A DNA stretch of 64,000 nucleotides, taken from the IMG/VR virus record IMGVR_UViG_3300017971_000207, positions 81,434 through 145,433 of that record. One strand, written 5' to 3'. Source of the DNA: a virus. This document shows positions 3,478-63,864 of the stretch, one piece after another. Made by a program: the position numbers and the translations under genes. Numbering within the stretch: the stretch's first letter is position 1; the number at the start of each line of letters is the position of its first letter. The notes beneath the pieces are model-generated. The model saw nothing but the letters and a program-made list of their open reading frames with translations. It was not told the origin of the DNA and made no database searches.

Positions 3478-3824
3478 TCCTAGCCCTGGCAGCCCTGGTG
3501 CTAACCGGCTGTCCCCAGTTTAAGCCGTGGGCCCGAACAGCCCTCGAAGCAGCCCGACACGCCTGCGCTGCCTACGCGGAGCAAACGGGCCTGTCCTTCA
3601 AGGACGTGTGCGACACCGAGGAGAAGCTACGTCCGTTTATCGATTCGATCCTAGCAGCTCAAGCAGCAGCCGCGGCAAAGGGGGCGGCCGGAGCCTGCAA
3701 GTGCCCAAAGTGTGAGGAGGCCCCCAAGCCCGCTGCCCCCGCACCGAAGCCGCCTCCCCCCACGCCCTCCGCAAAGCCGGAGGCCAAACCCATCCCCAAG
3801 CCTGAGCCAGCACCAGGAGGCTGA
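3453..3824 (+). CDS. outer-membrane-type lipoprotein, 123 aa
   Basis: A signal peptide ends in the lipobox LTGC (Cys20). The mature part has a helical region with three cysteines, a CKCPKC motif and a long Pro/Ala/Lys-rich C-terminus that could span the periplasm. It overlaps the preceding membrane protein gene and stops 1 bp before the protease start. Candidate outer-membrane spanin subunit or surface lipoprotein; no family recognised. Confidence 0.7.
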   Translation: MRKAATTLILALAALVLTGCPQFKPWARTALEAARHACAAYAEQTGLSFKDVCDTEEKLRPFIDSILAAQAAAAAKGAAGACKCPKCEEAPKPAAPAPKPPPPTPSAKPEAKPIPKPEPAPGG

Positions 3825-3825
3825 G

Positions 3826-6800
3826 ATGACGGAGAAAGGCACAGGCTACATCCCATCGCCAGAGGACGAGCGGGACTACCCGCTGATAGGCCCAGGCGAG
3901 AACGCCCTCTTCGGGGCGCTGAACACAACGGTCCCCACCGAGCATCTAGCAATGCTACCGTTGATCGACTTCATCCGTGATCAAGGCGGCACCAACTCGT
4001 GCTTTCCTGCGGGCACTCGCGTGCTCCTGGAAGGCTTTACAGAGCGACCTATCGAACAGATTGCTCCAGGAAACCGTGTGCGGACGCACACAGGCCGAAG
4101 CGGTGCCGTCACAAAGGTGTCTGAGAGACCCTACGAGGGGCTGCTGTATTCGATCAAAGTAGGAGGCTGGATATACCCCCTAGAGGCTACTCCCGAGCAC
4201 CCCGTAGCCGTCATCGCCAACGTGTCCGCCAGAGCAAAGCACGGAGACTTCGAGCCTGGTGAGCTAACGTGGCGCCGGTTTGACGCGATACGTCCAGGAG
4301 ATCGTGTAGTCATGCCTGCAGACACCCGAGAGTTCCCCGAGGACTATCGGTCTGCGTGGCACGTGCTGCGCGTAGCGGACTATCTGGAAGGGGAGTACTG
4401 GGAGGAAGATGGCGCTGTTCGAGCGGCCATGGGAAGACGGGGGAGTGAGATACCTGCGGAGCTGGGGCTCACCCCCGATATCGGCAGGCTTCTCGGGCTG
4501 TTCCTAGCAGAGGGCAGCTTTCTCAAACCCAGCGGCACTAAACAGGGTGTGGCGTTCACCTTTGCGCGGCACGAAGCGCTCCTCCACACCTTCGTCTTGG
4601 AGGCCATGAGGACACACTTCGACCTGGAGGGCCAGAAGGAGGAGACGGAGCAGAAGCCCAACGTCACAACGTTGCTATTCTACAGCTCAACTGTAGCGCA
4701 GCTGTTCTACGCTCTGTGCGGAGAAGGGGCGCTACAGAAGCGCGTGCCCGACGTGTTTTTTGAGACAGGGCGCGACGTGAAGCTCGCACTCATCCGAGGG
4801 TGGTTTCAAGGAGATGGGTCTCAAGACCCCGTTCGTCTCCGCAGAAAGAAGGACGGCACTGTGCGCAAAGCTGCGGCCGTTCAAGGAGTCACAAGCTCTG
4901 AGGAGCTCCACCGTGGGCTATACCGCTTAGCCTCTCTCTGTAACATCAAGCTCAGTACGCAGCAGAGAAAGGTAGCGGAGCATCAAAACGCTGCCGGCCG
5001 CGAGCTGAACCTTTACGGGGACAACATCCTAAAGGTGTTCCCCGATGCAGCACCGCGCCTGGAAGCCGCTGGGATAAAGCTATCGGGACGGACCCGCTAC
5101 CGAAAGCACGCCTTGGGATATCTGTGCCGCGTAGAGGAGGTTTCTATGCGTGAGGCCCCCGCAGACACTAAGGTCTACAACTTGGAAGTCGAGGGGGATC
5201 ACTCGTACGTTGCCGAGGGCATCGCCGTCCACAACTGCGTCTGGCAATCCATCCAGCAGCAGCACTACATCGCACAGGGGGTACACGGGGTGCAGCAACG
5301 TCTACCCCTGAGCGTGATGTTCGGCTACTACCACACGCGCCTTCGCGGGGGCACGCAGAGGTTTGACAATGGCTGCTTCCCCAGGCTGGCCTGGCAGGTG
5401 GCGGAGAAGATCGGATTCTGTATCGAGGACCTGTGGCCCTTCAAGGAGCCCGAGATAAACCGACCGCCGAGTCTAGATGCCACCTCCGGGGCCATAGACC
5501 AGCGGTGGGTGCACGGCTACTACCACATCCTCGGACGCCCACGAGAGGAGGAGGTCCGACAGGCCCTCTCAAACAACCACCCTGTGGTATTCGGGACCGT
5601 CGTCGACAACGATTTCAAGCGGTACAAGGGCTCTAACCTTAGCACCGAGCCTATGAAGCCTCCGACGGGCCACTCCGGACGCCATATGATGTGCGCAGTT
5701 GCGTACGATCAAGACGGTCTGTGGGTGATCAACTCGTGGGGCTGTTACGACGATAAGACGGAGATTCTAACCGCCGCTGGGTGGAAGTCTTTTGCTGATG
5801 TCGTGGTGGGTGAGCCCGTCGCAACGCTTAATAGCCACGGGGAGCTGGAGTACCAGAATACGACTGACGTTCAACGCTACATCTACGACGGAGAGTTGTG
5901 GTCTTACCAGTCCCAAGGCGTAGACCTTGTTGTGACGCCAAACCACAACATGCTCATAGGACGCCGTTGTCGCGAAGGCGGTAAGCGCGTCCCCAAGTGG
6001 GAGCGCGTTCCGGCTGATCGCATCAACACCAAACACTTCTTGATGAAGAAAACGGCTGCCTGGTCAGGCGAAGAGCCTCCTTACATTGAGGTCGGTCCCC
6101 ACAGGATACCAACGGAGCTTTGGGTCGAGTTCCTCGGCTACTTCTTGTCCGAAGGTCATGCCCGAGAGAACGTGGTCCAACGGCCGGAGCGTGTGGCGCT
6201 TAACGGTACGACAGGTCGCGAGAAGCGGTACAGCGCGTGCAGCGAAACTCAGTACCTGGTGGGTATCCATCAAACCAAGTCTGAAGGTGTCTTCAAGATG
6301 GGCGCCTGTCTACGTCGCATGCCTGCCGCCTTCACCCGCATAACAGGGGGTTGGCAGGCAACATCTAGCCCACTGTGCGAGCATCTTCTCCCGCTCGGAA
6401 AAGCGCATCAGAAGTACATTCCTCCCTACGTCAAAAGGCTCTCTCCTCGGCTTCTACGAGTGTTCCTGAAGGCCGCTTGTCTCGGCGACGGCTCCCCTGT
6501 AGGCCGCAACGGCAGCGTCTACTACACCTCGTCCAAGCGGCTTGCTGACGATATACAGGAGGTTGCACTAAAGGCCGGGATGTGTGCAGATATACGCGAG
6601 GATGATCGCCGCGGTCGTACTAATGCGCGGGGGACCACTCGCTATGTGAACTACCAGGTGGCAATCAAACCCGTGAGGGGAGAAACCAAACCCAAAGGAG
6701 GCTTCACGCCAACAAAGATCCCCTACAAAGGTTTCGTGCGCTGCGTCACAGTACCGAACGGTCTGGTCTATGTTCGACGCAATGGTAAGGCGGTCTGGTC

Positions 6801-6936
6801 GGGCAACTCCGACTGGGGCTGCCCGGACCCATCAGGGTTCTATCGATCGGGGTTCTTTCATATGTCCTGGGAATGGGTAAACTGGTCAAGTGCCACTGAT
6901 TGGTGGGCCGTCCAATACCCAAAGATGTTCGTTTAG
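3826..6936 (+). CDS. papain-like (C1) cysteine protease with two inteins
   Basis: The 1036-aa precursor would splice to ~269 aa. The N-terminus (GYIPSPEDERDYP) is typical of bacterial C1A peptidases without a long propeptide. The catalytic Cys is in QGGTNS-C (codon 5236), His in GRHMMCAVAYD and Asn in VINSWG. Intein 1 splits the protein exactly before the catalytic Cys, intein 2 right after NSWG. Start ATG 3826 has AGGAGG 5 bp upstream; a longer upstream frame lacks a start signal. It lies between lipoprotein genes and predicted virion genes, so it may act in maturation, lysis or host attack; no signal peptide seen. Confidence 0.88.
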   Translation: MTEKGTGYIPSPEDERDYPLIGPGENALFGALNTTVPTEHLAMLPLIDFIRDQGGTNSCFPAGTRVLLEGFTERPIEQIAPGNRVRTHTGRSGAVTKVSERPYEGLLYSIKVGGWIYPLEATPEHPVAVIANVSARAKHGDFEPGELTWRRFDAIRPGDRVVMPADTREFPEDYRSAWHVLRVADYLEGEYWEEDGAVRAAMGRRGSEIPAELGLTPDIGRLLGLFLAEGSFLKPSGTKQGVAFTFARHEALLHTFVLEAMRTHFDLEGQKEETEQKPNVTTLLFYSSTVAQLFYALCGEGALQKRVPDVFFETGRDVKLALIRGWFQGDGSQDPVRLRRKKDGTVRKAAAVQGVTSSEELHRGLYRLASLCNIKLSTQQRKVAEHQNAAGRELNLYGDNILKVFPDAAPRLEAAGIKLSGRTRYRKHALGYLCRVEEVSMREAPADTKVYNLEVEGDHSYVAEGIAVHNCVWQSIQQQHYIAQGVHGVQQRLPLSVMFGYYHTRLRGGTQRFDNGCFPRLAWQVAEKIGFCIEDLWPFKEPEINRPPSLDATSGAIDQRWVHGYYHILGRPREEEVRQALSNNHPVVFGTVVDNDFKRYKGSNLSTEPMKPPTGHSGRHMMCAVAYDQDGLWVINSWGCYDDKTEILTAAGWKSFADVVVGEPVATLNSHGELEYQNTTDVQRYIYDGELWSYQSQGVDLVVTPNHNMLIGRRCREGGKRVPKWERVPADRINTKHFLMKKTAAWSGEEPPYIEVGPHRIPTELWVEFLGYFLSEGHARENVVQRPERVALNGTTGREKRYSACSETQYLVGIHQTKSEGVFKMGACLRRMPAAFTRITGGWQATSSPLCEHLLPLGKAHQKYIPPYVKRLSPRLLRVFLKAACLGDGSPVGRNGSVYYTSSKRLADDIQEVALKAGMCADIREDDRRGRTNARGTTRYVNYQVAIKPVRGETKPKGGFTPTKIPYKGFVRCVTVPNGLVYVRRNGKAVWSGNSDWGCPDPSGFYRSGFFHMSWEWVNWSSATDWWAVQYPKMFV
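4000..5235 (+). mobile_element. LAGLIDADG intein 1 of the C1 protease (412 aa)
   Basis: Starts with CFPAGTRVLLEGF and ends EGIAVHN before Cys. Block B lies around EATPEHPVAV. Endonuclease motifs GLFLAEGS and GWFQGDGS are present, so it may still home. The +1 nucleophile is the catalytic Cys of the protease, making activity depend on splicing. Confidence 0.9.
5743..6807 (+). mobile_element. LAGLIDADG intein 2 of the C1 protease (355 aa)
   Basis: Starts CYDDKTEILTAAGW after NSWG and ends VWSGN before Ser. Block B is TPNHNMLI. Endonuclease motifs GYFLSEGH and KAACLGDGS are recognisable. The penultimate residue is Gly instead of the usual His. Confidence 0.88.
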
Positions 6937-6948
6937 GAGACCAACACA

Positions 6949-7305
6949 ATGAATCGTGAGCTAAACCGCTTGTTAGAGAGCGTACGTGCAGAGCTGGCAG
7001 AGGGCCTCCCCAAAGGGAAGTACCTGGGCCTACGAGACGCAAAAAGCATCGACATGAACCGTGTCCGGGTTGATCTAGAGACCACCTCTGGGGACAATCT
7101 AGGGGGCAACATCGAAACCCTCTTGAGAGGTGAGGACGATGTAAGGTGGCTTACGAGGCCGCCGCGACGAGGGGAGGGCACCGCGAGCTTCACCATCTTC
7201 GTCCGGGACCCGGACGAGTTCAAGTACCTGTGGAACACGTTGGAGCGTGCAGAGATCTACGACGACACTATCCTAAACTTCTACGTCAGCGTCACGGACA
7301 TCTAG
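6949..7305 (+). CDS. predicted virion-targeted protein with MNREL N-terminus, 118 aa
   Basis: Not recognised by domain. The first ~19 residues (MNRELNRLLESVRAELAEG) form an amphipathic helix ending LAE-G, like T4 capsid-targeting peptides cut by the prohead protease. The same start is seen in the products at 31776, 52459 and 52027. The rest is a small alpha/beta protein. It follows the protease by 12 bp with TTAGGAG as ribosome binding site. Confidence 0.65.
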   Translation: MNRELNRLLESVRAELAEGLPKGKYLGLRDAKSIDMNRVRVDLETTSGDNLGGNIETLLRGEDDVRWLTRPPRRGEGTASFTIFVRDPDEFKYLWNTLERAEIYDDTILNFYVSVTDI

Positions 7306-10784: not shown

Positions 10785-13700
10785 CTATCTTATCGGACAG
10801 CTTCCGCTAGCGCACGCCTCCTCAATCTCCATCTCACCGCCGTTGACCAGCGGGTGGTCGTGGTCGATGTTGGAGGCTAGACGCTCAAAGGTCTCGCGGT
10901 CTATCGCCTCGTAGGGAGGCTGGGCGTAGCCATGAGCCTTGGGCAAGCAGGTGGTGCTCTTAAGCCGCGGCACAAACTCCCCGAGAAGAGCGGCAAGCTC
11001 CTCCTGCTCCGTATCGGCGTCAAAGGTGATAGTGGCACTGACGGCATTATCTGCCCAGTGCTCCTGTACGGCCGCCTGCCGTTCAAACTGCTGGCGCAGC
11101 GTCTGCGTCTGCGCAGTCACGCGCCCCGCGGGCGTCGACTCTGCGAAGCTGAACACGATCGTGTTCCCTGTCTGGTCGTACACATCAAGCTCGTGCGGAA
11201 CGCCAGCCTCCATAAGGGCGCCGGCTAGGTTGTCCGCAATGTCCAAGCGAACACGGCGGATGTAGTGGCGCGCGAAGGGGGCGTGGATGCCTGGCGAGCT
11301 GCGGCTTAGCAACGATATGGTGCCGCTAGGCTTAACGGTGGTAACGGTCTTGGGGATAGCTGTGCCTAGCTCAATGGCGTAGCGCGTAGCCTCCCTGCGA
11401 CATGCTCCGTACCACGCATCGAGCTGTGCTGGCGTCCAGTCGAAGTCGCAGATACCCCCCAGCCCTACTCCTAGCCTCATGTTCTGCTGCTGCACCGCGT
11501 TCGAGATGGGGTCCGTCAGCTTAGACAGTCGATTGCGAAAGCAGTAGCGCGTGACAAGGCGAAACACCTCGTCAGCGTCAGTCGTATCGTGGAACCGTGA
11601 GGGGAACACCTCGGACAGGTTGCACGCCTCACGGTTGTACAGCGGCAGCTCGCCACAGTTGCCCGTCGCTACGCCGTCTGCAATGAAGGTCTCGTGCGTC
11701 GGCTGCTTGAGGCAGAACACCGGCTCGTGTCCGATAGGCTCGATGCTCACGATCTCCGTGGTGAACCGCTCCGCATAGGGTCCCCTCTTCCACGAGCTGC
11801 GCCAGCTTAGATAGCGATCCTCCATATCCTCTCGGAGGAATCCGAGCTGCTCATAGAAACGGACCGCGTTGGCCTTTGAGACAACAAGGTCGTACTGCGT
11901 CTTGCACCAGTAGTCAGCAAGGTCCCCCTTACCATCAGGCAGACGGCGATAGCCTGCGTCTCGCCGCTTGTAGACGGACGACACGATGCCGAAGTTTAGG
12001 AGCAGCGTTTGAACATCACGGAGAAGAGCTGGGTTGCTCTGCGACAGACGGACGGAGAAGGTCTGCTTTTCGGCTGTCCAGTTTATCTGACCGTCTGTTG
12101 CGAAGAGGCCGCGGAGGTAGCCGCGGACGCACTTTTTGGTCCCGCGCCACACCACCTCTGGCACAGAGCCCTTCTCACGATAGCCTACCTCAGCCAGGGC
12201 ACGGCTTAGCAGCGAGCTGCAGATGTCCTCGTAGCGATCATACACTTGACAACCGAAGCGCTTCAGGTGCCCGTTACGCGGCGCTACGGAGGCCGCTACC
12301 TCGTGGCACCACGCTAGATATTGCCCGGACATCTTGCGCTTGGCGTCCCAGAAGAATAGATGAGCGCGCTTGCCGTCCTCGCTCCAACAGCCGTCACCTT
12401 CGAGCCACCCAATAACATGCCCGAGAGCCTCGCTGCCGTCCGCCCCCCACAAACCCTCGCCGGATTGAAGTAGCAAGGTATCTCCAGGAGACAGGTCCTT
12501 AAGCTCCACAAAACCGTCGGGGGTCGGGAAGCGGTGATACGCCGTAGCCTTGATCTCGTTACCGTGCCGGGTCCGCATCCGGTAGACCTTCTCGGAGGCG
12601 CTTGTCTGGAAAGCCGCCTCCGCCTCGCGATGCACCGCTCCAGGCGAGACGTTCGTACGGTCCGTGCCGACACGAGCGTCGGTGGTGACCTGGAAAGCTT
12701 TGGCGTCCTTGAGATCTCGGATGGGTATTAAGCCCCATTGCGTGACGACACGGGTGTCGCCGGTGAGGCAGGGGTTGATCCCAACGATACCGGGGTCCGT
12801 CTCACGACATAGAGGGAGGTTGAACACACCAGGCTCGCCACCAGGCTCCGCAACGATGTCCGAAACGAGCTGGCGCCAGTCAAACCCCTCCAGCTCCTCC
12901 CTGCTTTGGAAGGCCAACGAGTTGTTGCTGGTGTGCCGATGCAAGGTTACCAGGCTCAGGTCCTTCTTCGCATTCCGGAAGGCTTGGTCGGTCGGGCTCC
13001 CCAAGGTCATCAAGGCGGAGTTGTGGACGAGCAAGCCGTTGCAGACAAACTCCTCAGCACCAGCTACCTCGATATCGTAGGTGTCCGCGGTCTCGTCCGT
13101 CTCGGTCACGTCCTGCACACAGATGGGCACGAGACCCTGAGCTTCTCCGCCCAGCTCTTCGTAAAGCGGGAAGACCATCTGTTTGCTGGTTGAATCCCAC
13201 CGACCTTTCCAGAAGGTGGTGCTGTGTTCTGCGCGCACCATCTCGGAGGGGTAGCCGTAGTCACACTGAGACACCGCGCTTACACGGACGCGCTTGGTCG
13301 CGTGGGGCTGCACTAGCTCCAGAAAGCGGGCCGTCGCGGTCCGTCCCACCAGATTGAGGTGGTACATAGGCTGCCAAGACCCTCTAGCAGAGCGATTAAG
13401 CTTCAACCTCGTCGGTATTCCCAGGCTCGCGTAGACCGCCTGCACCTGCTCCAGGAAGGAGGGGTACACCGAGGCGCAGAGAACCACGGGGCGATTGCGT
13501 GCTGCACCGTCCGCATCTAGGAGGCCCGCCAGGTAGGAGGCTCGAACATGGGGGAGCCCCTCCAAGATGAACGACGGCACGTTAAGAGGCTGACGGGGTT
13601 TCTTCAGATTATCGTCCAGGTACCAGGCTAGCTGCTTGGACTGTGCTCGTATCCTTAGACAGTCGTCGAGGGCTCGTGGGGGGCGCTCGTTGAGCCGGAC

Positions 13701-15968
13701 CCCGTAGCGCGTCAATTGCTCACGGCATCTGTTTGCTATTGCGTTGTGATAGCCGTCGTTAGCAACTACCACAGAAACATAGGCGTTGAACCCGTCGTCG
13801 CGTCGGTTGGCCCTGGTGTAGCCGTCTCCCTGAAAGTAGCCAAGAAACCAAGCGCTCTGCTCATCTAACCGCGGAACGGTTATATCGACGCACGTCGTAG
13901 AGTGTTTCGGCTTGTCGTAGGACCACGAGGGCAGCTCAGTAGGACGCCCTGGTAGAATGGCGTCGACAAACACCATACGGTCCCCTGGCTCCAGCTCTTT
14001 AGCCTCTTTGAACTCGTAGCGGCCGGGGGCTGTGAGGACGGCCACTCGATGGTTTCCGGTACAACGAAAGACGCCCATTTGCGTGGTCAGCTCGTAAAGA
14101 GCCTGAACGCCCTGGTGTACGTGCTCCGAGACCTTAGCAAACTTCGAGCCCCCTGTGAGAACCTCATCGCCTACCGCAACGGCCTCGATAGGCTTCAGCC
14201 CGTTCTTGGTGTGAACCAAGGAGCCTTCGGGGAGACAGCGACGCACGTTGCCTGCCTTCACGCATAGCCCGATGTAGTTGGTGACATCCAGGCAGTCGAT
14301 CGAACTAAGCCTCCGACCCCGAGCTCGACGGACAACCTCCCAGCAGGACCTCAGCATATGAGTTAGCGGGCCAGGGCCGCCGGCCACTCCGCCAAAGGTC
14401 CGGATGGGTGTACCTCGCGGGCGCACGCGGGACACGTCAATGACCACATCAACCCCCTGGAAGGCTGAGAGCAGCACCTCACCTAACGCCTTCATCCAGC
14501 CCTCACGTGAGTCCTCTACATCGTAACGGTGTGTGCTCCCGTTGAGCATCTCTCCGCTGTACTTCGACACCTCGGTGTAGTTGGGGTGGTCCAGCCGACA
14601 CTCGATGAACAGACGCGGGTTGCCTGGGGCAACAGGAGGGAGTGCCCCAATGTTATCGAGCCCTACACCAACGCCTCCGCCAAGCATGAGCTGCTCAGAC
14701 GTCCACACCCAGTCGTCCACGCCGGACAGCTGCACAAACCAGCAGTTGCCCGTTACTACGCCCCCCTCCAAGGTAAAGCTACCTGTCTCGGGCTCGGTAA
14801 CGCAGAAGACCTCCTCTTCTTGTCCCTCATCCACGATCTCTCGCACGGTGTAGCGGGTAGGCTCGGGAACGACTGTAAGAATCTCCAGGCGTCCTGAGCG
14901 TATACCGTAGTTTGTCTCAGTGCTTGGATCCGTTGACCTACCAGTAACGCAGTATCCTAACAGTGGCGCACGCTCAGCCACCCAGTCCAACGCAGCGCTG
15001 TTCTGGGAGGACAGGCGATTGCTGGGCTTCCCCGGTCTAAGAGAGCCATCAGCTGCTAAGAGTCCGGCGAGAAAACCGGCCTGGTAAACAGTATCCAACC
15101 TGGTTGGGGGCAGGCTCTTGAGATCCTCCACAGACTTAAAGAACAGCACAGGCTCTCCATCCTGAGAAGGCGGCGTGCACGTGTACGAGAAGAAGCTAGC
15201 CCTCTCCAACCGCTCTCTGTGAGCAACCTTCTTACCGCACAACCGTAGCCTAAACGTGCTGAGCTTGAGCGTCTCACGGCTCCCATCTCCAAAGATGAGC
15301 CCATGAGCAAACCCATCGTTGAACGTCTTGGGGTCGCATCCTTCAAGCTCTTTTGCGCAAGCGGGTGTTACTAGGATCTGGTCACCCACCCGGAGGTCTG
15401 TGACCTCCCCGCGGTTCGAGGTGAACCAACGGTGCTCGGCTGTAGCTGTGAACTCAAAAGCGAAGCTGGACCTTAGCCCTGTAGGCTTCATGCGATAGCG
15501 GAGGAGCCGTTGCCTACCAAAGGACCTAACCTTTGCTGGACGCCATTGCCCATCCTTGGTCAACACCTCTACGGTTTCTCCTACCGCCTCCTCCAAGGTT
15601 GCAAGAACACCGTTGGCCCAGAAGCGAGTACCTCCCGAAAAGCAGTTGAACCGAGCGTTAGCAGGGATGCCTGGCACACCACCGGTCCATAGCCCGCGAC
15701 CGGGGGGCAACGCCTGGCAGGTCCAGAAGAGCTCAAACAGCCGCTCAGCCTCGGCGCGGCAGGGGCTTGGAGCCAAGGACACATTACCCTCCACCACGCG
15801 GCGGATAGTGTCGGTCCACGACTCCTCGTTGCGGCAGTACTTCGTTAGGTAGGTGCTACGGGAGAGTATGCTCTCGAACGGGTCGCGGGCCCTCCTGTAT
15901 GGCTCCAGGAAACGCTCCTGAAGCCGAAATTCCTGCGTCTCACGGGCCTTGACGACGATCTGCTGCAT
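10785..15968 (-). CDS. nrdJ: adenosylcobalamin-dependent (class II) ribonucleotide reductase with three inteins
   Basis: Makes deoxyribonucleotides using B12 radical chemistry, without oxygen. The 1727-aa precursor splices to ~650 aa, somewhat short for the family. Key sites: the active-site Cys in N-CWFVQLSG, the radical Cys in NP-CGELPL, PSGTISLL, and a C-terminal CASGSCPIR redox pair. Each intein sits beside a core motif: before CWF, before SALM, and between NP and CGE. I chose the ATG at 15968 (GGAG upstream) over a TTG at 15998. Phage reductases feed genome replication. Confidence 0.92.
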   Translation of the reverse strand: MQQIVVKARETQEFRLQERFLEPYRRARDPFESILSRSTYLTKYCRNEESWTDTIRRVVEGNVSLAPSPCRAEAERLFELFWTCQALPPGRGLWTGGVPGIPANARFNCFSGGTRFWANGVLATLEEAVGETVEVLTKDGQWRPAKVRSFGRQRLLRYRMKPTGLRSSFAFEFTATAEHRWFTSNRGEVTDLRVGDQILVTPACAKELEGCDPKTFNDGFAHGLIFGDGSRETLKLSTFRLRLCGKKVAHRERLERASFFSYTCTPPSQDGEPVLFFKSVEDLKSLPPTRLDTVYQAGFLAGLLAADGSLRPGKPSNRLSSQNSAALDWVAERAPLLGYCVTGRSTDPSTETNYGIRSGRLEILTVVPEPTRYTVREIVDEGQEEEVFCVTEPETGSFTLEGGVVTGNCWFVQLSGVDDWVWTSEQLMLGGGVGVGLDNIGALPPVAPGNPRLFIECRLDHPNYTEVSKYSGEMLNGSTHRYDVEDSREGWMKALGEVLLSAFQGVDVVIDVSRVRPRGTPIRTFGGVAGGPGPLTHMLRSCWEVVRRARGRRLSSIDCLDVTNYIGLCVKAGNVRRCLPEGSLVHTKNGLKPIEAVAVGDEVLTGGSKFAKVSEHVHQGVQALYELTTQMGVFRCTGNHRVAVLTAPGRYEFKEAKELEPGDRMVFVDAILPGRPTELPSWSYDKPKHSTTCVDITVPRLDEQSAWFLGYFQGDGYTRANRRDDGFNAYVSVVVANDGYHNAIANRCREQLTRYGVRLNERPPRALDDCLRIRAQSKQLAWYLDDNLKKPRQPLNVPSFILEGLPHVRASYLAGLLDADGAARNRPVVLCASVYPSFLEQVQAVYASLGIPTRLKLNRSARGSWQPMYHLNLVGRTATARFLELVQPHATKRVRVSAVSQCDYGYPSEMVRAEHSTTFWKGRWDSTSKQMVFPLYEELGGEAQGLVPICVQDVTETDETADTYDIEVAGAEEFVCNGLLVHNSALMTLGSPTDQAFRNAKKDLSLVTLHRHTSNNSLAFQSREELEGFDWRQLVSDIVAEPGGEPGVFNLPLCRETDPGIVGINPCLTGDTRVVTQWGLIPIRDLKDAKAFQVTTDARVGTDRTNVSPGAVHREAEAAFQTSASEKVYRMRTRHGNEIKATAYHRFPTPDGFVELKDLSPGDTLLLQSGEGLWGADGSEALGHVIGWLEGDGCWSEDGKRAHLFFWDAKRKMSGQYLAWCHEVAASVAPRNGHLKRFGCQVYDRYEDICSSLLSRALAEVGYREKGSVPEVVWRGTKKCVRGYLRGLFATDGQINWTAEKQTFSVRLSQSNPALLRDVQTLLLNFGIVSSVYKRRDAGYRRLPDGKGDLADYWCKTQYDLVVSKANAVRFYEQLGFLREDMEDRYLSWRSSWKRGPYAERFTTEIVSIEPIGHEPVFCLKQPTHETFIADGVATGNCGELPLYNREACNLSEVFPSRFHDTTDADEVFRLVTRYCFRNRLSKLTDPISNAVQQQNMRLGVGLGGICDFDWTPAQLDAWYGACRREATRYAIELGTAIPKTVTTVKPSGTISLLSRSSPGIHAPFARHYIRRVRLDIADNLAGALMEAGVPHELDVYDQTGNTIVFSFAESTPAGRVTAQTQTLRQQFERQAAVQEHWADNAVSATITFDADTEQEELAALLGEFVPRLKSTTCLPKAHGYAQPPYEAIDRETFERLASNIDHDHPLVNGGEMEIEEACASGSCPIR
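11658..12770 (-). mobile_element. intein 3 of the ribonucleotide reductase (371 aa)
   Basis: Begins CLTGDTRVVTQWG after GINP and ends GVATGN before CGEL, splitting the radical-cysteine motif NPCGE. LAGLIDADG motifs GWLEGDGCW and GLFATDGQ. Penultimate residue Gly. Confidence 0.9.
13020..14237 (-). mobile_element. intein 2 of the ribonucleotide reductase (406 aa)
   Basis: Begins CLPEGSLVHTKNG after GNVRR and ends GLLVHN before SALMTLG. Block B CTGNHRVAV. Endonuclease motifs GYFQGDGYT and GLLDADGAA look intact. Confidence 0.9.
14745..15644 (-). mobile_element. intein 1 of the ribonucleotide reductase (300 aa)
   Basis: Begins CFSGGTRFWANG after ANARFN and ends VVTGN before CWFVQ, directly before the active-site Cys. 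Endonuclease motifs GLIFGDGS and GLLAADGS in a short insert. Penultimate residue Gly. Confidence 0.88.
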
Positions 15969-16002
15969 AGCTTCTCCACGCGCACGCTTGCCCGCCAAGA
16001 GG

Positions 16003-16032: not shown

Positions 16033-16602
16033 TCACGAGGTGAGGAGGTCTCGGACCTCCGCCTCTAAGCTCTCCACGACTCCCAGCTTGGGAGGATCGT
16101 CCGAGAGCTTAAACCGGACCTGCAGCAGGTCATCCTGGCTGTCTCCTCCCCATAAAGTGGTCGAGTCCACCGTCCCCACGATGGGCTCATCAAGCGTTAT
16201 CTCATAAGGCGTGGGGCTGTAGGATAGCGTGATGTGCGGCTGATAGTCCGGGAACTTCTTCGAGAACGGGACACCCCCGGCATCGAAGGCGCGCGCCAAC
16301 TGCGCGCGCAGCTTCATAAGCGCAGGGCTGAGCACCTTAGCGATTATTGGGTGTCCGGGCTTGTCGTCCGGGTTCTCAGGGAAGTAGGACACCTCCCTGA
16401 CCACTACCTCGAACGGCGGTGTGCGGTCCATGATGGGGGCCGCAATCTCTATCGCGCCACCCAACGTGTGCAAAGGCACTCCCTTGCCGAGGTAGAGCAT
16501 CGTGATGTGGTGGCTGTTTGCCCCCACATGCTCCCCAGGACAGCCGATACTTCTAAGGCGCTCACTGAGCGCGGGTGACATGGCTACCCCTAAAAACGAC
16601 AT
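16033..16602 (-). CDS. 2H phosphoesterase (LigT/2'-5' RNA ligase-like), 189 aa
   Basis: Two H-x-T motifs, HHITMLYLG (~32) and HITLSY (~122), define the 2H fold, whose members cleave 2'-5' or cyclic phosphodiester bonds in RNA ends, tRNA splicing products or cyclic oligonucleotides. Phage 2H proteins include the anti-CBASS enzyme Acb1, so defence evasion is one possible role, RNA repair another. Start at 16602 keeps the first strand (SFLGVAM). Confidence 0.82.
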   Translation of the reverse strand: MSFLGVAMSPALSERLRSIGCPGEHVGANSHHITMLYLGKGVPLHTLGGAIEIAAPIMDRTPPFEVVVREVSYFPENPDDKPGHPIIAKVLSPALMKLRAQLARAFDAGGVPFSKKFPDYQPHITLSYSPTPYEITLDEPIVGTVDSTTLWGGDSQDDLLQVRFKLSDDPPKLGVVESLEAEVRDLLTS

Positions 16603-35031: not shown

Positions 35032-35760
35032 CTAACCTACCACAAGCTCCTGCCACCGCGCCTCAAGCATCTGAGCGTACAAGGTCGCAGGTAGCCCATA
35101 CGGGCCAAACGCAAACCCATCGTTCACCTCGATCAAGAGGGTCTGACCGCCCGTGGTAACCCCCATGTCGAGCGTGTAGGCTGCAGGGGCGTCATGGTAG
35201 GCTTGGACGGCCTCCAGGACGACGTTTCGATCAAGAGGGCGCGACCAGTCCCCCTTGTAGTGCCGGGCCGCGAGGATGTCTCCTCGGAGCACACAGCACC
35301 GGTACTCGGCTTGGAAGGGAAGGGGTGGTGAGACCCAGCACAGCTCGTCATCGTCGTAAGGGCCAAGCCGCACCTGGTCCTCGAAGGTGCCCGAGGTAAC
35401 AAAGCCCGTGAACAGCTTCTGCTTATGTGGCTTGATGAACAGGCGACGGTGCGTGATGGTGCGGACCTCGGATAGGGGGAGGGTCTCGATCGAGCGTCCG
35501 AGGAAGGCTTTCAGGGATGGGGGATAGTCGAGGCTCGGGGGCCGGGGGATGTGCAGGTGGTCGAGGGCCTCCCACACATCCCCGACGAAGCCCGCCAGGC
35601 CCGTGTCGTGGCCCAGGTCCGAGAGTGAGCGGATGTCCCCAAAGCCGTAGAAGGGGACGGTCTCCGTGCCGCGGGCCCGGAAGCCCAAGGCTGCGATCGC
35701 ATGAGGCGCGCTGTCGGGTAGGTCCTCGCGATAGCGTATGTAGCAGCGGCGAAGGGTCAT
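35032..35760 (-). CDS. ATP-grasp protein (R2K-like clade), 242 aa
   Basis: LFIKPHKQKLFTGFVT (~109), YRCCVLRGDILAARHYKGD (~158) and YTLDMGVTTGGQTLLIEVNDGFAFGPYG near the C-terminus are the ATP- and Mg-binding parts of ATP-grasp ligases; this short form matches the R2K clade common in phages. Such enzymes join amino or carboxylate groups; substrate unknown. Stop is 5 bp before the next gene. Confidence 0.82.
   Translation of the reverse strand: MTLRRCYIRYREDLPDSAPHAIAALGFRARGTETVPFYGFGDIRSLSDLGHDTGLAGFVGDVWEALDHLHIPRPPSLDYPPSLKAFLGRSIETLPLSEVRTITHRRLFIKPHKQKLFTGFVTSGTFEDQVRLGPYDDDELCWVSPPLPFQAEYRCCVLRGDILAARHYKGDWSRPLDRNVVLEAVQAYHDAPAAYTLDMGVTTGGQTLLIEVNDGFAFGPYGLPATLYAQMLEARWQELVVG
35033..35042 (-). 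promoter_or_regulatory. late-promoter-like element
   Basis: Minus strand TGGTAGGTTA followed by GGGGGC and the ATG at 35026; same layout as at 24763 and 31761. Confidence 0.4.
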
Positions 35761-50621: not shown

Positions 50622-51497
50622 CTAGGTGCTGTAGAGCTGCTGTGCAGGACACGGAGCAGTGGGCAAAGCTTGGAGGGCCGTCGTCCGAGAGGTGCTCGCC
50701 CACAGCTTCTGTAGGGGGGCATCGTGGACCGACCCTAGCGTGAACGGCTCCCAGACGCCCTTCAGAGCCTCGCAGGGGAGCACCCGACCGTCGGGCTGGA
50801 TTAGGAGGCGCGAGGCCGCCTGACAGCCCGCGGCGCCCAGGAACGGGGCACCTAGCCGCACGCCTGCACCAGAGGCGAAGGCTGTGATGCGCTGGGTCAG
50901 CCCGTCGGTTAGCTCTAGCTCGGGGCGTGCCGCCGCTCCGCGGCCCTGGGGGACAAAGCGCAGCAGCGAGACCTGGGTCAGCTTGAGGGCTCGGGCACAC
51001 TCAACATAGGTGGGGAGCTGAGCGACGGTGAGCAGCAGGGGGGTGTGCTGAGCCTCCACCTTGAGGTGCAAGCTTTGGGCGCGCTCGATCGTATCGATTG
51101 GCTGTCGGACGGTAGCCTCGGAACGTGCGATGCGCCGGTAGGTGCTGGCGCGGAAGGACGGGATACCGAGGATGAGCTGGGTCCTGGTCGCGCGAACGGT
51201 GTCAAGGATGTCGAGGGATAGGGGCTCGTAGGTGTCCGAGACACCACAGGAGTAGAGCCGTAGCTTGAGCCCCAAGCTGTGACCATGCTGGAGGATGTCG
51301 GGCAAGCCTGGATGTAGGGTTGGCTCTCCGCCTGATATCGCGGCGGTCGTCGCCCCAAGCTCTCGGGCCTCAGTGAGAACTCGGCACACCGTCGCGGTGT
51401 CGAGATGCGTGGTAGCGTCGGGTCCCCCCTCCGTCGAGCAATAGACGCAGCGGTTGGGGCAGCGCTGCGTCAGCTCGATCGTCAGCTCCTTGAGCAT
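50622..51497 (-). CDS. radical SAM enzyme with SPASM-like C-terminus, 291 aa
   Basis: CPNRCVYCS (13-21) is the CxxxCxxC 4Fe-4S motif; ISGGEPTLHPG (~55) the SAM-binding GGE. The C-terminal part (GAAGCQAASRLLIQPDGRVLP then C, later C) recalls SPASM/twitch domains that modify peptides or proteins. Function in the phage is unknown; candidates are modification of a phage protein or of a nucleotide. It ends convergently to the repeat protein. Confidence 0.85.
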   Translation of the reverse strand: MLKELTIELTQRCPNRCVYCSTEGGPDATTHLDTATVCRVLTEARELGATTAAISGGEPTLHPGLPDILQHGHSLGLKLRLYSCGVSDTYEPLSLDILDTVRATRTQLILGIPSFRASTYRRIARSEATVRQPIDTIERAQSLHLKVEAQHTPLLLTVAQLPTYVECARALKLTQVSLLRFVPQGRGAAARPELELTDGLTQRITAFASGAGVRLGAPFLGAAGCQAASRLLIQPDGRVLPCEALKGVWEPFTLGSVHDAPLQKLWASTSRTTALQALPTAPCPAQQLYST

Positions 51498-54978: not shown

Positions 54979-55272
54979 TTACTCTACCTCCATGGCGCAC
55001 TTAGCGCACCATCCTAGGGACCACCACAGCTGCAGGGGTCCGAGAAGCAGCCCATCGTTGGGGCCGTCGTAGTAGCTGTGGACGCGCCCCCACCTCGTCC
55101 AGCTCTTCGGGGTCCAGGCTAGGAGCGCGTAGCGCGCGCTAAGGCCCACCCAGCGGCCGTTCAGCTCCAGCTGCTCAATAACCCCCACATAGTCGCTCGC
55201 GAGCTCTAGAGCCCATCTACGGGGCGAAGCGGGCCCATCTGAGGGCACCTCTAGCAACGGTACGGTGAGCAT
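54979..55272 (-). CDS. hypothetical protein, 97 aa
   Basis: TGATG overlap with the upstream gene fixes the start at 55272. Trp-rich (WTPKSWTRWGRVHSYYDG...LQLWWSLGWC) with a CAKC pair at the end. Not recognised. Confidence 0.6.
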   Translation of the reverse strand: MLTVPLLEVPSDGPASPRRWALELASDYVGVIEQLELNGRWVGLSARYALLAWTPKSWTRWGRVHSYYDGPNDGLLLGPLQLWWSLGWCAKCAMEVE

Positions 55273-56786: not shown

Positions 56787-57476
56787 CTAGCGTCCGTGTG
56801 ACATCCACAGCTCCTCGACCAGGGCTGCGGTACGGTCCCAATCCTGCGGTGTGAGCCCGTTCGGGTCCCAGGGCAAGATTGCGCACTCCACCGTGTGGCT
56901 CCAGGGGTACATCGCGGTCTTAGCCTCGCTCAGCAGCTGCTGATAGCCCTCGTGTATCTCCTGGAGGTACTCCAGCGTGATGTCGGCCTCCTGCGGTCTA
57001 CCGCGCTTCCTGATGCGCTCCAGGCACGTCTCGGGCCTGGCGTTCAGATACAGCAGGACCGTAGGGGGGAAGAGCACGAGGGACATGTTGCGGACGGCCG
57101 TCATGTAGATATCCCACTCCTTGGGGTGGATCGCCCCATGCTTCATCAGCACCTGCGCGAACACCATATCCCCCCAAAGGGAGCGATCGAGAATGGCGCC
57201 GTCATAGCCGGCTGAGACCATGGTCTCAGCCGCGGCCGACATCTGAGCAGCCCAGCGGCGGTGAAGCATCTCTATCTGGAAGGGGAAGGACCACCTCTCC
57301 TTATCCGCGTAGAACAGCTCCAGAAGCTCGGGGTCTACCGGCTCCTCGATTAGCCGCAGATTGAGGCGGTTGGCAAGCTCGCGGCTCGCGGTGCTCTTAC
57401 CTGCACCTATTGAGCCCTCAACAATGATCAACGGGCGCAGCCACGCCCTAACATCTTTCGGACCTCTACCGGTCAT
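56787..57476 (-). CDS. deoxynucleoside kinase
   Basis: Phosphorylates deoxynucleosides. IIVEGSIGAGKSTASREL (P-loop, ~17-34), EEPVDPELL (~45), ILDRSLWGDMVFA (~94-106; DRS motif) and RIRKRGRPQEADITLEYL (lid, ~155). 229 aa is normal. Complements thymidine kinase and the reductase. Upstream microprotein gene ends 11 bp before. Confidence 0.9.
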   Translation of the reverse strand: MTGRGPKDVRAWLRPLIIVEGSIGAGKSTASRELANRLNLRLIEEPVDPELLELFYADKERWSFPFQIEMLHRRWAAQMSAAAETMVSAGYDGAILDRSLWGDMVFAQVLMKHGAIHPKEWDIYMTAVRNMSLVLFPPTVLLYLNARPETCLERIRKRGRPQEADITLEYLQEIHEGYQQLLSEAKTAMYPWSHTVECAILPWDPNGLTPQDWDRTAALVEELWMSHGR

Positions 57477-58014: not shown

Positions 58015-58048
58015 GACGTTGGGTAAACTTTCCACAGACGAGGGTAAG

Positions 58049-59134
58049 ATGAGCACAGAGGCGCGTGATATTGTTGACGAGCTGACGGACCTACTGCTAA
58101 CGCATCCGGGCTGGGATGACCTGCTTCTGGCCTCAATCACGGAGGCGAAGGAGGAGGCGCTGCAGCGGGGGATGGAGCGGGCCAGGGAGTGGCCTGACGA
58201 CCTGGACGGCTACTTCGAGTATCTGCGTGGAGCGGTGCGGTGGATACCGCGGCAGGACTACCCGCGGGAGACGTTCAACCACCTGGCCAAGTTCTACTGG
58301 CTGCTGGACCAGCCGACGGGGCGGAAGCTGCAAGCTTCCGAGGAATTTAACCGGTGGATGTGCGACTTTGCAGCGGACTGGGGAGCTTTCCTCAGCACCT
58401 CTGCATCAGCGGCAGACCTGGCCACCTTTGAGGCAGACCCAGCTTACAACACCTGGCAGTATGTCAAGCCGCCGCATGGGTGGGCCACGTTCAACGACTT
58501 CTTCGCTCGCTACATCAAGCCAGGCATGCGGCCTGTGGCCGGCTACCGGCAGGATGCCATCATCACAAGCCCCGCCGACTGCACCTTCAAGGCTAAGTGG
58601 CCCATCAGCAACGACAGCACAGTCACGATCAAGTTCACCCACACCTACTCGGTCCTCGACCTGCTGGAGGGGAGCCCCTACCGCGACCGCTTTCGCGGCG
58701 GCCTGTTTGCTCACAGCTTCCTGGGTCCCTCGGACTACCACCACTTCCACTCACCGGTCCGGGGGACCGTGCTGGAGAGCCGAGCTGTGGTGGGCCGCGT
58801 ATTCCTCGGGGTCACGATCAACGAGCATGGGGAGTTTGAGGCGCCCGACAGAGCTGCCAACGGCTACGAGTTTCGGCAAGCTCGGGGCATCATCATCTTT
58901 GACAGCCCGATCGGGCTGGTCGCTGTCATCCCCGTAGGGATGGCGCAGGTCAGCTCGGTGAACATGACCGCTGTCGAGGGCTCCTACGTGAACAAAGGCG
59001 ATCGCTTCGGCTACTTCATGTTCGGCGGCTCGGACATCATCGTGCTGTTCGAGAAGGGCTCCGGGGTCGAGTGGACCGCTGCCCCCGGCATCCACACTAA
59101 CGTGGGGATGGCCGTCGCTGAGGTCTTTCGCTAG
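58049..59134 (+). CDS. phosphatidylserine decarboxylase-like enzyme, 361 aa
   Basis: Family role: converts phosphatidylserine to phosphatidylethanolamine after self-cleavage at a Ser that becomes the pyruvoyl group. Seen: FFARYIKPGMRP (~155), ITSPADCTF, DYHHFHSPVRGTV (~232-244) and YFMFGGSDIIVLFEKG (~320-335) with the cleavage Ser in GGS-D where most enzymes have GST. N-terminal ~100 residues are helical and not part of the family core. No membrane segment. In a phage it may alter host lipids or act on another substrate. Confidence 0.82.
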   Translation: MSTEARDIVDELTDLLLTHPGWDDLLLASITEAKEEALQRGMERAREWPDDLDGYFEYLRGAVRWIPRQDYPRETFNHLAKFYWLLDQPTGRKLQASEEFNRWMCDFAADWGAFLSTSASAADLATFEADPAYNTWQYVKPPHGWATFNDFFARYIKPGMRPVAGYRQDAIITSPADCTFKAKWPISNDSTVTIKFTHTYSVLDLLEGSPYRDRFRGGLFAHSFLGPSDYHHFHSPVRGTVLESRAVVGRVFLGVTINEHGEFEAPDRAANGYEFRQARGIIIFDSPIGLVAVIPVGMAQVSSVNMTAVEGSYVNKGDRFGYFMFGGSDIIVLFEKGSGVEWTAAPGIHTNVGMAVAEVFR

Positions 59135-61934: not shown

Positions 61935-62100
61935 CCTATACGTCTGAGGGTTTAGGTCCCCACTAGCGCGGGGAAGCTCCGTCACCAGGGGCTAAGCCAA
62001 CCGTTCCGCTAAACTTACCAAAAGTTACCATTAGGTAGCTCCTGCGTTAGCTTCCTGCCCAGAAGGTAGTTTCACTCGGCCCACATGGACCAAGCCAGCG
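61935..62100 (-). ncRNA. possible TnpB omega RNA
   Basis: TnpB guide RNAs normally cover the 3' end of tnpB and the following element end. This stretch has a stem TCCCCGC/GTGGGGA. The exact ends and guide cannot be set from sequence alone. Confidence 0.3.
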
Positions 62101-63254
62101 CTCCCTTGGCGACAGGCTGACACCCCGGAACTCGGGGCCAAAGTCTTCAGATTCACAGCAGCGTTCAGGTCCCTATCCATCACCAGACCACACCGCTCAC
62201 AACGATAGGTTCGCTCTCCGAGACCCAAGGTCTCTTTGACGTGTCCACAACGTGAGCACCTCTTGGATGATGGATAGAATCTGTCTGCCTTGACCAAGAT
62301 GGCACCATACCACCTGGCCTTATATTCAAGCTGCCTGTGGAACTCCGACAAGGAAGCGTCGCTCAAAGCTCGGCTCAGCCTACGGTTCTTGAGCATCCCG
62401 GCAACATTCAGGTCCTCAATCACAATCGTCCCCGCCGACTTGGCTATCATCGTCGTGGCCTTGTTGATTGAGTCTCGTCTGATGCAGGATACTCGATAGT
62501 GCTGACGAGCTAGCTGAAGCTTGGCTTTCCTTCGGTTCTTTGATCCTTTCTTCCGCCTTGAGACGGCCTTTGACAAGCGACGAAGGCGCTTCAGCGCCCC
62601 ACCCAAAGCTCTTGGGTTCTCGAACACCTCGCCCTCAGAGGTCACTGCGAGATGTGAAATACCAACATCCGCCCCAAGCACACCTTTGGCGGACCTCGGC
62701 TCTGGTCTGTCCTTCTCGACGGAGAGGGAAACGAACCACCGCCCGGCCCGCTCAGAGATGGTCGCTGAGAGCACTTTGACTCCATCCTGGGGAAGGTAGC
62801 CCTGCTCCTTCAAACGGAGCCTACCAAGCCTCGGGAGCTGAATATGAGTGCCTTCGGAGGTGACCTTGACGGTGCCGGTGAGAGTGAAGCTTCCAATCCC
62901 GTTCCTTCGGCTTTTGAAGCGAGGGAATCCCTTCCTTTTGGCCCCTTGCTTGCAACGCCTAAAGAAGCTCTTGTAAGCCTTATCAAGGTTCCTCAAGCTC
63001 TCCTGGGCCGCGCACTTCGAGACCTCATACATCCAGGGGACGCCGCCCTGCTCCTTGGGGAGCTTCTTCAGCTTGTTCAGCTCCCGGTGAAGCTCCATGG
63101 CGCTCGGAGAGCGTTTGGTTGTCCGATAGCTCTCGATCTTCTGACGAAGGCCCCAGTTGAAGGCCCACCGAGCAGCTCCCGCGTGCTTCAAGAGCAGTGT
63201 CCGCTGAACGTTGTTGGGGTCCAGCTCCACTTTATAGCCACGGTTCACCTTCAT
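62031..63254 (-). CDS. tnpB: TnpB RNA-guided nuclease (Cas12 ancestor family), 407 aa
   Basis: RuvC residues appear intact: VLGADVGISHLAV (Asp), TIVIEDLNVAGM (Glu), MDRDLNAAVNL (Asp), with the zinc finger CSRCGHVKETLG ... CERCG. N-terminal YKVELDPNNVQ is typical. Length is normal. With an RNA made from the element end it would cut matching DNA and help keep the element. Start ATG overlaps tnpA. Confidence 0.92.
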   Translation of the reverse strand: MKVNRGYKVELDPNNVQRTLLLKHAGAARWAFNWGLRQKIESYRTTKRSPSAMELHRELNKLKKLPKEQGGVPWMYEVSKCAAQESLRNLDKAYKSFFRRCKQGAKRKGFPRFKSRRNGIGSFTLTGTVKVTSEGTHIQLPRLGRLRLKEQGYLPQDGVKVLSATISERAGRWFVSLSVEKDRPEPRSAKGVLGADVGISHLAVTSEGEVFENPRALGGALKRLRRLSKAVSRRKKGSKNRRKAKLQLARQHYRVSCIRRDSINKATTMIAKSAGTIVIEDLNVAGMLKNRRLSRALSDASLSEFHRQLEYKARWYGAILVKADRFYPSSKRCSRCGHVKETLGLGERTYRCERCGLVMDRDLNAAVNLKTLAPSSGVSACRQGSAGLVHVGRVKLPSGQEANAGAT

Positions 63255-63864
63255 TTTCCTGGGCCTTCCTCTTGCGGTTGGCGGCAGAGCGACGACCATA
63301 GATCCTTGCGGAGAAGGATGACATCAGAGAAAGGATGTCCGAGACAAGCTCCTCCTCGTAGCTCTTGCCCAGAGCCTTTCGAACCCACTCTATCCGAACA
63401 CCATGGCTCGCAAAGTAGCTCTCAAGGAACCCAAAGGAGAAGCGGCAGAGGCGATCCTTATGCTCGACTACAACCACGTCCACCTTGTGCTCGTTGACTA
63501 GCTTGAAGAGCCGATGAAGCTTTGACCTCGTATCAGACATCCCCGAGCCAACCTCTCGAAGCACGGCTTTGACCTGGTACTCCTTCTTGGCGCAATAGGC
63601 TGAAACACGGCCTACCTGACGTTCAAGGTCGCCCTTCTGCTTCTGGTCATGGCTGCTTACGCGACAGTAGACCACGGCTCTGAGAACCGCGCTCTCAGGC
63701 TGCTGGCCCTGAAGAGCTTGAATATCCGAGAGACGATAGCGCCGATGACCTCCTGGGGTGCGGACAGCTTGGAGACGGCCTTCGTTATCCCACCGACGTA
63801 GTGTACTCGGGTCTGCTCCAAGCTGCTTGGCCGCCTGACGGAGCGTTAGGAGTCGCTCACTCAT
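63232..63864 (-). CDS. tnpA: IS607-type serine recombinase transposase, 210 aa
   Basis: MerR-like helix-turn-helix at the N-terminus (LRQAAKQLGADPSTLRRW, then GGHRRY), then a serine resolvase domain with YCRVSSHDQ (catalytic Ser, ~67) and EHKDRLCRF. Full length. ATG overlaps the stop of the upstream phage gene, so it could be expressed by read-through. Confidence 0.92.
   Translation of the reverse strand: MSERLLTLRQAAKQLGADPSTLRRWDNEGRLQAVRTPGGHRRYRLSDIQALQGQQPESAVLRAVVYCRVSSHDQKQKGDLERQVGRVSAYCAKKEYQVKAVLREVGSGMSDTRSKLHRLFKLVNEHKVDVVVVEHKDRLCRFSFGFLESYFASHGVRIEWVRKALGKSYEEELVSDILSLMSSFSARIYGRRSAANRKRKAQENEGEPWL

Follow-up and report, generated by a model that had tools for sequence, protein, structure and literature searches.

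We describe a phage gene that most probably (at a rough estimate, two chances in three) encodes a soluble amino-acid decarboxylase that depends on a pyruvoyl group and belongs to the phosphatidylserine decarboxylase (PSD) superfamily, on the side of PsiD, the L-tryptophan decarboxylase of psilocybin biosynthesis; it would be an auxiliary metabolic gene of large phages. Comparison with solved structures and related sequences reveals a predicted fold like those of PsiD and the Aspergillus oryzae arginine decarboxylase over the whole length of the protein, loss of the phosphate contacts of PSDs, absence of an N-terminal membrane segment and membership of a clade of viral proteins on which purifying selection acts. 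Members of this superfamily in viruses are read as phosphatidylserine decarboxylases; the evidence for this clade points to amine production, and the enzyme is more likely to alter small molecules than membranes in infected cells. The initial annotation of the gene called its product PSD-like, which names the superfamily correctly, although phosphatidylserine decarboxylation is probably not its function. If its substrate is found, this would mean that phages use a further protein fold for making amines, by way of a gene kept under purifying selection in large phages.

The gene and its phage

The window, i.e. the whole 64,000-nucleotide stretch of DNA analysed here, corresponds to bases 81434–145433 of a 145,433-base IMG/VR record. 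In this record there are genes for a T4-type major head protein (phrog_138, 4.6e-71), a head maturation protease, a portal protein, a tail sheath and a baseplate hub, as well as a DNA polymerase, a UvsX-like recombinase, a DnaB-like helicase and ribonucleotide reductase, which identify it as belonging to a large contractile-tailed phage. These genes and the uniform composition of the record (tetranucleotide r to the record mean is 0.954 for the 5-kb window starting at 55001, and the 28 windows span 0.818–0.968) agree with the initial assignment of the gene to a phage. A second record of the same phage (G001, 99.99–100% identical) reaches about 11.5 kb past the left end of the window's record and stops before the decarboxylase gene. 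The four near records found by their capsid genes (G001–G004, this second record included) lack the decarboxylase gene, and all of them may be fragments.

The gene (Table 1), first recognized from its open reading frame, is clearly real: the frame runs from the ATG at 58049 to the stop codon at 59132–59134, as read from the sequence, and its product matches Pfam PF02666 (PS_Dcarbxylase) far beyond chance, with 153.7 bits where 22 would suffice (E = 6.3e-45, residues 148–357). The N-terminal part scored 17.7 bits with PF12588 (PSDC), under the cut-off of 23.4, and no PHROGs family matched the protein at E values up to 1. The cut-off was reached in none of the six listed NCBIfam equivalog models for PSD, the nearest being TIGR00163 with 86.5 of 111.75 bits. 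A promoter scan returned no hits (0.2 expected).

The decarboxylase gene stands alone on the plus strand amid minus-strand genes. Its downstream neighbours are ORFs without known function, two of which have weak PHROGs matches of unknown function; the neighbour that matches phrog_7775 is also found in G808, the record of a viral relative (see below). No relative of the neighbouring kinase was found in IMG/VR viral contigs, and there were no tRNA genes around the decarboxylase in the window or in the 21-kb locus L183. Pfam or PHROGs scans covering approximately 100 ORFs of the record showed no other lipid gene. A link to DNA hypermodification was considered and dropped, as no such family occurred among the Pfam-scanned ORFs, a subset of those in the record; no polyamine gene was matched in this subset either, which makes for a weak negative result.

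Table 1. Positions in the window of the decarboxylase gene, its elements and the neighbouring kinase gene.
Feature	Position	Strand	Basis or remark
Deoxynucleoside kinase gene	56787–57476	−	Upstream of the decarboxylase gene, with one small ORF
GAGGG, likely ribosome-binding site	58040–58044	+	Direct sequence reading
PSD-superfamily (PsiD-like) decarboxylase gene, 361 aa	58049–59134	+	Start backed by the aligned N-termini of relatives from viruses and bacteria
Helical N-terminal domain (PSDC/PsiD-like), residues 1–147	58049–58489	+	AlphaFold2 model; PsiD structural match spans the domain
Catalytic PS_Dcarbxylase domain, residues 148–357	58490–59119	+	Pfam PF02666
Asp177, equivalent of E. coli PSD D90	58577–58579	+	Residue alignment
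Phe224, replacing E. coli Tyr137 (phosphate contact)	58718–58720	+	Residue alignment
Asp229-Tyr230-His231, corresponding to D142–H144 of E. coli PSD	58733–58741	+	Alignment; residue roles as reported in PMC7952604
Leu253, replacing E. coli Ser166 (phosphate contact)	58805–58807	+	Residue alignment
Ser328 (in FGGSD), where cleavage and pyruvoyl formation are predicted	59030–59032	+	Aligns to E. coli S254

Predicted structure

The AlphaFold2 model of the protein, obtained with 23 rows (mean pLDDT 89, pTM 0.86), has helices from residue 8 to residue 129 that precede the catalytic domain. The helical N-terminus that was initially described as extra is thus indeed predicted, but it is a trait of the family and not peculiar to the phage protein. 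Foldseek ranked PsiD first for this model (E = 1.6e-15), followed by the A. oryzae arginine decarboxylase (9jer, 8.2e-14) and E. coli PSD (1.2e-11). In VIA-align, PsiD (8x4q) aligned with the model over 296 residues (model residues 4–326, Z 22.6, 3.9 Å) and the A. oryzae enzyme (9jf5) over 303 residues (Z 21.7, 3.8 Å). The alignments of E. coli PSD covered 204–217 residues within the 77–326 range, starting between model residues 77 and 103 (Z 16.5–17.1, 3.0–4.7 Å). Sequence profiles ranked the three in the opposite way: when a 23-row alignment, 7 rows of which were PSDs, was run against PDB sequences, E. coli PSD scored 205 bits, PsiD 183 and the A. oryzae enzyme 153. Predicted structures of PSDs from giant viruses match as well. 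Chains of IIA-Glc and of the LytM/M23 type, with VIA-align Z scores of approximately 7–13, were taken to share only a common beta-sandwich architecture.

PsiD (PDB 8x4q, 8zia) resembles the phage protein in its whole-length fold, the helical N-terminal domain, the self-cleaving GGS motif (residues 326–328 of the phage protein) and the Phe residue at the position of E. coli Y137. It differs in being fungal, not viral, with approximately 18–23% identity, in lacking the PSD-type Asp229 and, in an alignment read by eye, in having Ala where the phage protein has Leu253. The A. oryzae enzyme (PDB 9jer, 9jf5), reported to be a pyruvoyl-dependent arginine decarboxylase (PMC12283126), likewise shares the whole-length fold with a PsiD-like N-terminal domain; it is 24% identical to the phage protein, contains insertions and, as read by eye, has F and A at the two phosphate-contact positions, as does PsiD. 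E. coli Psd (PDB 6l06, 7cnx) has the catalytic domain and the autocleavage residues in common with the phage protein but lacks most of its N-terminal domain and is anchored via amphipathic helices. In a hydrophobicity scan, the 19-residue Kyte–Doolittle maximum in the first ∼ 140 residues was 0.76 for the phage protein versus 2.4–2.9 in four short bacterial PSDs, which bears out, as judged from hydrophobicity, the initial observation that the former has no membrane segment.

Catalytic and lipid-contact residues

In E. coli PSD, according to PMC7952604, autocleavage depends on D90/D142-H144-S254, and Y137 and S166, together with a backbone amide, bind the phosphate of the lipid. The same source reports that the Y137F mutant has ∼ 50% activity, that S166A alone causes no significant change, that the double mutant is substantially less active, and that the position of Y137 is occupied across the PSD family by Y (85%) or R (15%). 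The phage protein retains all autocleavage residues (D177, D229, H231 and S328) and the G327–S328 site; the key motifs, GGS included, are thus kept, as first noted, and these conserved residues make self-cleavage of the phage protein likely.

Among the 14 rows of clade C (see below), D177, H231, H234 and S328 are present in all and D229 in 12. The position of Y137 is occupied in this clade by F in 13 rows (and I in one) and that of S166 by L in all 14, whereas the 15 PSD rows all have S at the latter position and either Y (9 rows) or R (6 rows) at the former. PsiD-like bacterial rows never have D229 (0 of 9), and D177 is found in four of them, with Glu in the other five. Ser328 is invariant in the four viral sequences, and the three viral relatives of the phage protein keep all compared residues except H234 (G, R and R, respectively). 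This loss could mean that the phage protein, whose activity is predicted, is a degenerate relative that is inactive and has a role other than catalysis. Such a role is very improbable: the residues most important for autocleavage in E. coli are kept, H147 (the equivalent of H234) is reported to be largely dispensable for cleavage of the E. coli enzyme (PMC7952604), and dN/dS values are as low as 0.07–0.22.

Relatives in viruses

Full-length relatives at 60–62% identity were found in four IMG/VR contigs, L179 (32 kb), L180 (398 kb), L181 (173 kb) and L182 (416 kb). The 13-kb loci of L181 and L182 are identical, so these contigs represent three distinct viruses. All viral counts are lower bounds, as four family-member scans with short patterns missed the 60–62% relatives, which were found in two scans. 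The record of L179 (G808) encodes a T4-like head protein and a portal protein. The record of L182 (G811) encodes a head protease and a portal protein with relatives among the portals of Bacillus phage G and Tunturi_5 and can therefore be recognized as a phage; G809 is linked to phages indirectly, by several flanking genes that it shares with G811. Hallmark searches with PF03237, phrog_138, phrog_23, phrog_213 and PF17289 retrieved nothing from G809, G810 or G811, PF03237 and PF17289 being insensitive enough to miss the window's own record as well. No 16S rRNA was found in any of the six viral records searched. Among the distant IMG/VR relatives, L015 (11.4 kb, with terminase and portal genes) shows 27% identity and L016 (482 kb) 22%; L016 is partly degenerate, with E at the position of D177.

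In 21-kb loci of the relatives, the decarboxylase gene lies inside dense tRNA arrays, with 30 tRNA genes in L184 and 38 calls (36 tRNA and two tmRNA) in L185 and L186; two of the three further viruses (∼ 400 kb) carry the gene within such arrays. Ketosynthase-like, acyl-carrier-protein-like and AcpS-like ORFs were seen by eye ∼ 2–4 kb upstream of the decarboxylase in the 416-kb G811 (L182:2238–4205, and the same in L181). The dN/dS ratio is 0.068 for the G809/G811 pair and 0.218 for the window's record (G000) and G811, the other four pairs being saturated at synonymous sites; the viral clade is under purifying selection. The GC3 of the decarboxylase gene varies among the viruses from 0.49 to 0.82.

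Among deposited phage records, 6 of 50,697 matched at E ≤ 1e-3, each with less than 60% identity; a further search again gave six hits. The two that were inspected are an evident stretch of Acinetobacter chromosome and an unannotated 2.9-kb contig; by names and lengths, the others are two 0.5-Mb Salmonella genome contigs, a sister Acinetobacter contig and a 1.7-kb contig. These six matches look like host DNA where judged, and the 50,697 records contain no convincing member of the viral clade.

Such host sequences in phage records raise the question of whether host DNA was misjoined to phage DNA in the assembly of the window's record too. The gene is indeed solitary, opposite in strand to its neighbours and located towards the record end, and, with G001 ending before it, the junction has no second assembly. 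A misjoin is nevertheless the least probable of the explanations considered, with only a slim chance of being correct: the composition around the gene fits the record, its closest relatives are viral and differ among themselves in gene GC, and the phrog_7775 neighbour is common to the window's record and G808.

Relatives in bacteria and phylogenetic trees

A scan of GTDB genomes was evaluated for the best 80 of 471 confirmed candidates, and 37 of these 80 loci were taken to the tree stage. The best ten among the listed matches consist of clade C members from Aquimarina (2), Balneolales, Kordia (3) and a gammaproteobacterial MAG (36–44% identity), followed by Brocadia, Cyclobacteriaceae and Desulfobacterium (28–32%). 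Of 395 Bacteroidota genomes sampled, 23 matched the clade C alignment at E ≤ 1e-60, six of them (the centre genome included) at 487–698 bits and 17 at 213–237 bits; in 398 genomes from the phylum of the gammaproteobacterial MAG there were three matches at E ≤ 1e-50. Given these low counts in both samples, clade C is rare and has a scattered distribution. Its bacterial members are 37–47% identical to the phage protein and share the SPADCT, FGGSD and GYEFxQxRG motifs with it, but most are 400–440 aa long, with insertions, as compared to 361 aa in the phage. The member from genome G021 (L177:4494–6251) has ∼ 185 extra N-terminal residues, which we presume may form an ILEI/FAM3-like domain. The bacterial genes are solitary, with no operon in common; in three Kordia loci a GNAT-like ORF (identified by eye) is adjacent to the gene or one ORF off, which may reflect mere common descent.

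In the first two maximum-likelihood trees, clade C was sister to PsiD-like (PSDC) bacterial proteins (support 99/96 and 95/92) and apart from the true PSDs (100/100 and 98/99). The third tree (33 rows) grouped L179, L180 and L181 with the phage protein in one clade (98/95) beside Bacteroidota and Balneolota members (88/91), within a 16-row clade with bacteria (99/98); the deepest split of this tree is weak (76/31). The sister relation of clade C and the PsiD-like proteins is therefore likely but not firm, judging from these sequence trees, none of which placed the phage protein inside the PsiD-like sequences: it falls into a separate clade. L015 forms a long branch of unsure placement. A crude motif filter left eight rows out of the first tree (L016, L036, L038, L040, L041, L043, L056 and L093), seven of which are in the residue table; L016 was also included in the second tree and left out of the third, and L041 (wrong frame) was not used.

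All ten bacterial genomes checked (seven with clade C members and three with members of the nearer outgroup) have at least two PF02666 matches. In nine of them, the second match is a complete short frame of 216–242 aa, and in one it is only partial. Of the nine short frames, four were scanned with NF003678 ('phosphatidylserine decarboxylase family protein'), and all four passed its curated cut-off. With separate short PSDs in these genomes, the clade C gene is probably not needed there for phosphatidylethanolamine.

These data bear on the two roles offered in the initial annotation, remodelling of host lipids and action on a small molecule. Lipid remodelling, taken as the first hypothesis, was put second on the evidence of the residues, the fold and the second PSD. 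It would require the phage protein to be a genuine PSD and to increase phosphatidylethanolamine in the host membrane during infection, as might be expected from the PF02666 match (6.3e-45), the intact D-H-S autocleavage residues of the PSD type and the report of psd among auxiliary metabolic genes of ocean viruses, tied to membrane lipids and at negligible abundance (PMC11360552). A table on prophages of Paenibacillus larvae also lists psd (PMC9341999), and the gene is reported in algal viruses (PMC11633385). We consider this function unlikely: F and L replace the phosphate contacts Y137 and S166, the N-terminal domain is like those of PsiD and the A. oryzae enzyme and not like that of PSD, the N-terminal membrane segment is absent, the PSD equivalog cut-offs are not reached, a short PSD is encoded separately in nine of the ten genomes of bacterial relatives, and no further lipid gene was seen among the scanned ORFs of the record. 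Action on a small molecule is favoured by the fold, the trees, the lost phosphate contacts and the lack of an N-terminal membrane segment.

Proposed reaction and substrates

As an amino-acid decarboxylase, judging from its conserved residues, the proenzyme would cut itself between Gly327 and Ser328 into a beta chain (residues 1–327) and an alpha chain of 34 residues, the first of which would become the pyruvoyl group. By analogy with the superfamily, the amine of the substrate, a free amino acid, would form a Schiff base with the pyruvoyl group, and His231 would hold the carboxylate while CO2 leaves, after which the amine would be released. Several observations speak against this reading. The matching superfamily profile, PF02666, is named for the lipid enzyme; D177 and D229 are PSD-like, unlike the PsiD-like bacterial rows; and in E. 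coli PSD the Y137F mutant is reported to keep about half of the activity and S166A alone to cause no significant change (PMC7952604), which leaves some room for a lipid substrate.

The substrates of the two closest solved structures are, by their PDB titles, tryptophan and arginine, neither of which can be assigned to the phage enzyme; PsiD is reported to act on tryptophan (PMC6121855). No operon or partner gene pointing to a substrate was seen at the bacterial loci examined. It is quite improbable, less so than the inactive or misassembled gene discussed above, that the substrate is something other than a free amino acid, e.g. an amino acid attached to a nucleotide, to a hypermodified DNA base or to a carrier protein. 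Some residues are peculiar to the viral proteins (H234 is replaced by G or R in three of four), and the huge phage G811 has the ketosynthase-ACP-AcpS-like cassette described above, but no DNA-hypermodification family was seen among the Pfam-scanned ORFs and no ketosynthase-type cassette near the gene in the window's record, G808 or G809.

Phage-encoded amino-acid decarboxylases that serve polyamine production have been reported, among them pyruvoyl enzymes with the AdoMetDC fold (PMC9992855), which makes it plausible that an amine is produced in infection. These arginine/ornithine decarboxylases are, like the protein described here, phage-borne and pyruvoyl-dependent, and act on amino acids, but they have another protein fold, and the main text of PMC9992855 does not mention phosphatidylserine, PsiD or tryptophan. 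Tentatively, and with a good deal less confidence than the decarboxylase assignment itself, the virus-specific clade of the PSD fold may make a polyamine-type or other amine in infection, a second pyruvoyl fold put to the use known from the AdoMetDC fold; the position in tRNA arrays would then tie the amine to viral translation. In the literature searched, with partial coverage, we found no phage decarboxylase of the PSD fold described as PsiD-like or as acting on amino acids.

Other features of the phage records

An MNRxxNxxLxxxxxxL-like N-terminal peptide is found on six proteins, in the window at 6949, 31776, 52459 (minus strand) and 52027 (minus strand) and in L002 at 13529 and 13112 (both minus strand). 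We assume that it could be a sorting or cleaved leader, comparable to the capsid-targeting peptides of T4. Four overlong ORFs (window 10785–15998, L003:9329–13492, L004:3077–7951 and window 3712–6936) have split matches to ribonucleotide reductase, portal, DNA polymerase and thymidylate synthase families, which suggests inteins or inserted endonucleases. An ATP-grasp ligase of the R2K clade (R2K_2, 6.9e-38) is encoded at 35035–35760 of the window on the minus strand; phage enzymes of this clade have been predicted to modify host proteins (PMC4431377). A radical SAM protein with a SPASM domain and no evident partner is encoded at 50622–51497 (minus strand). One of 35 scanned ORFs matched both 2′-5′ RNA ligase and Acb1, an anti-CBASS family; judged by eye from the HITMLYLG motif, this would be the ORF at 16033–16602 (minus strand). 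At the record end (window 62031–63864, minus strand), a TnpB-like protein adjoins a MerR-resolvase, which we take to be an IS607-type pair.
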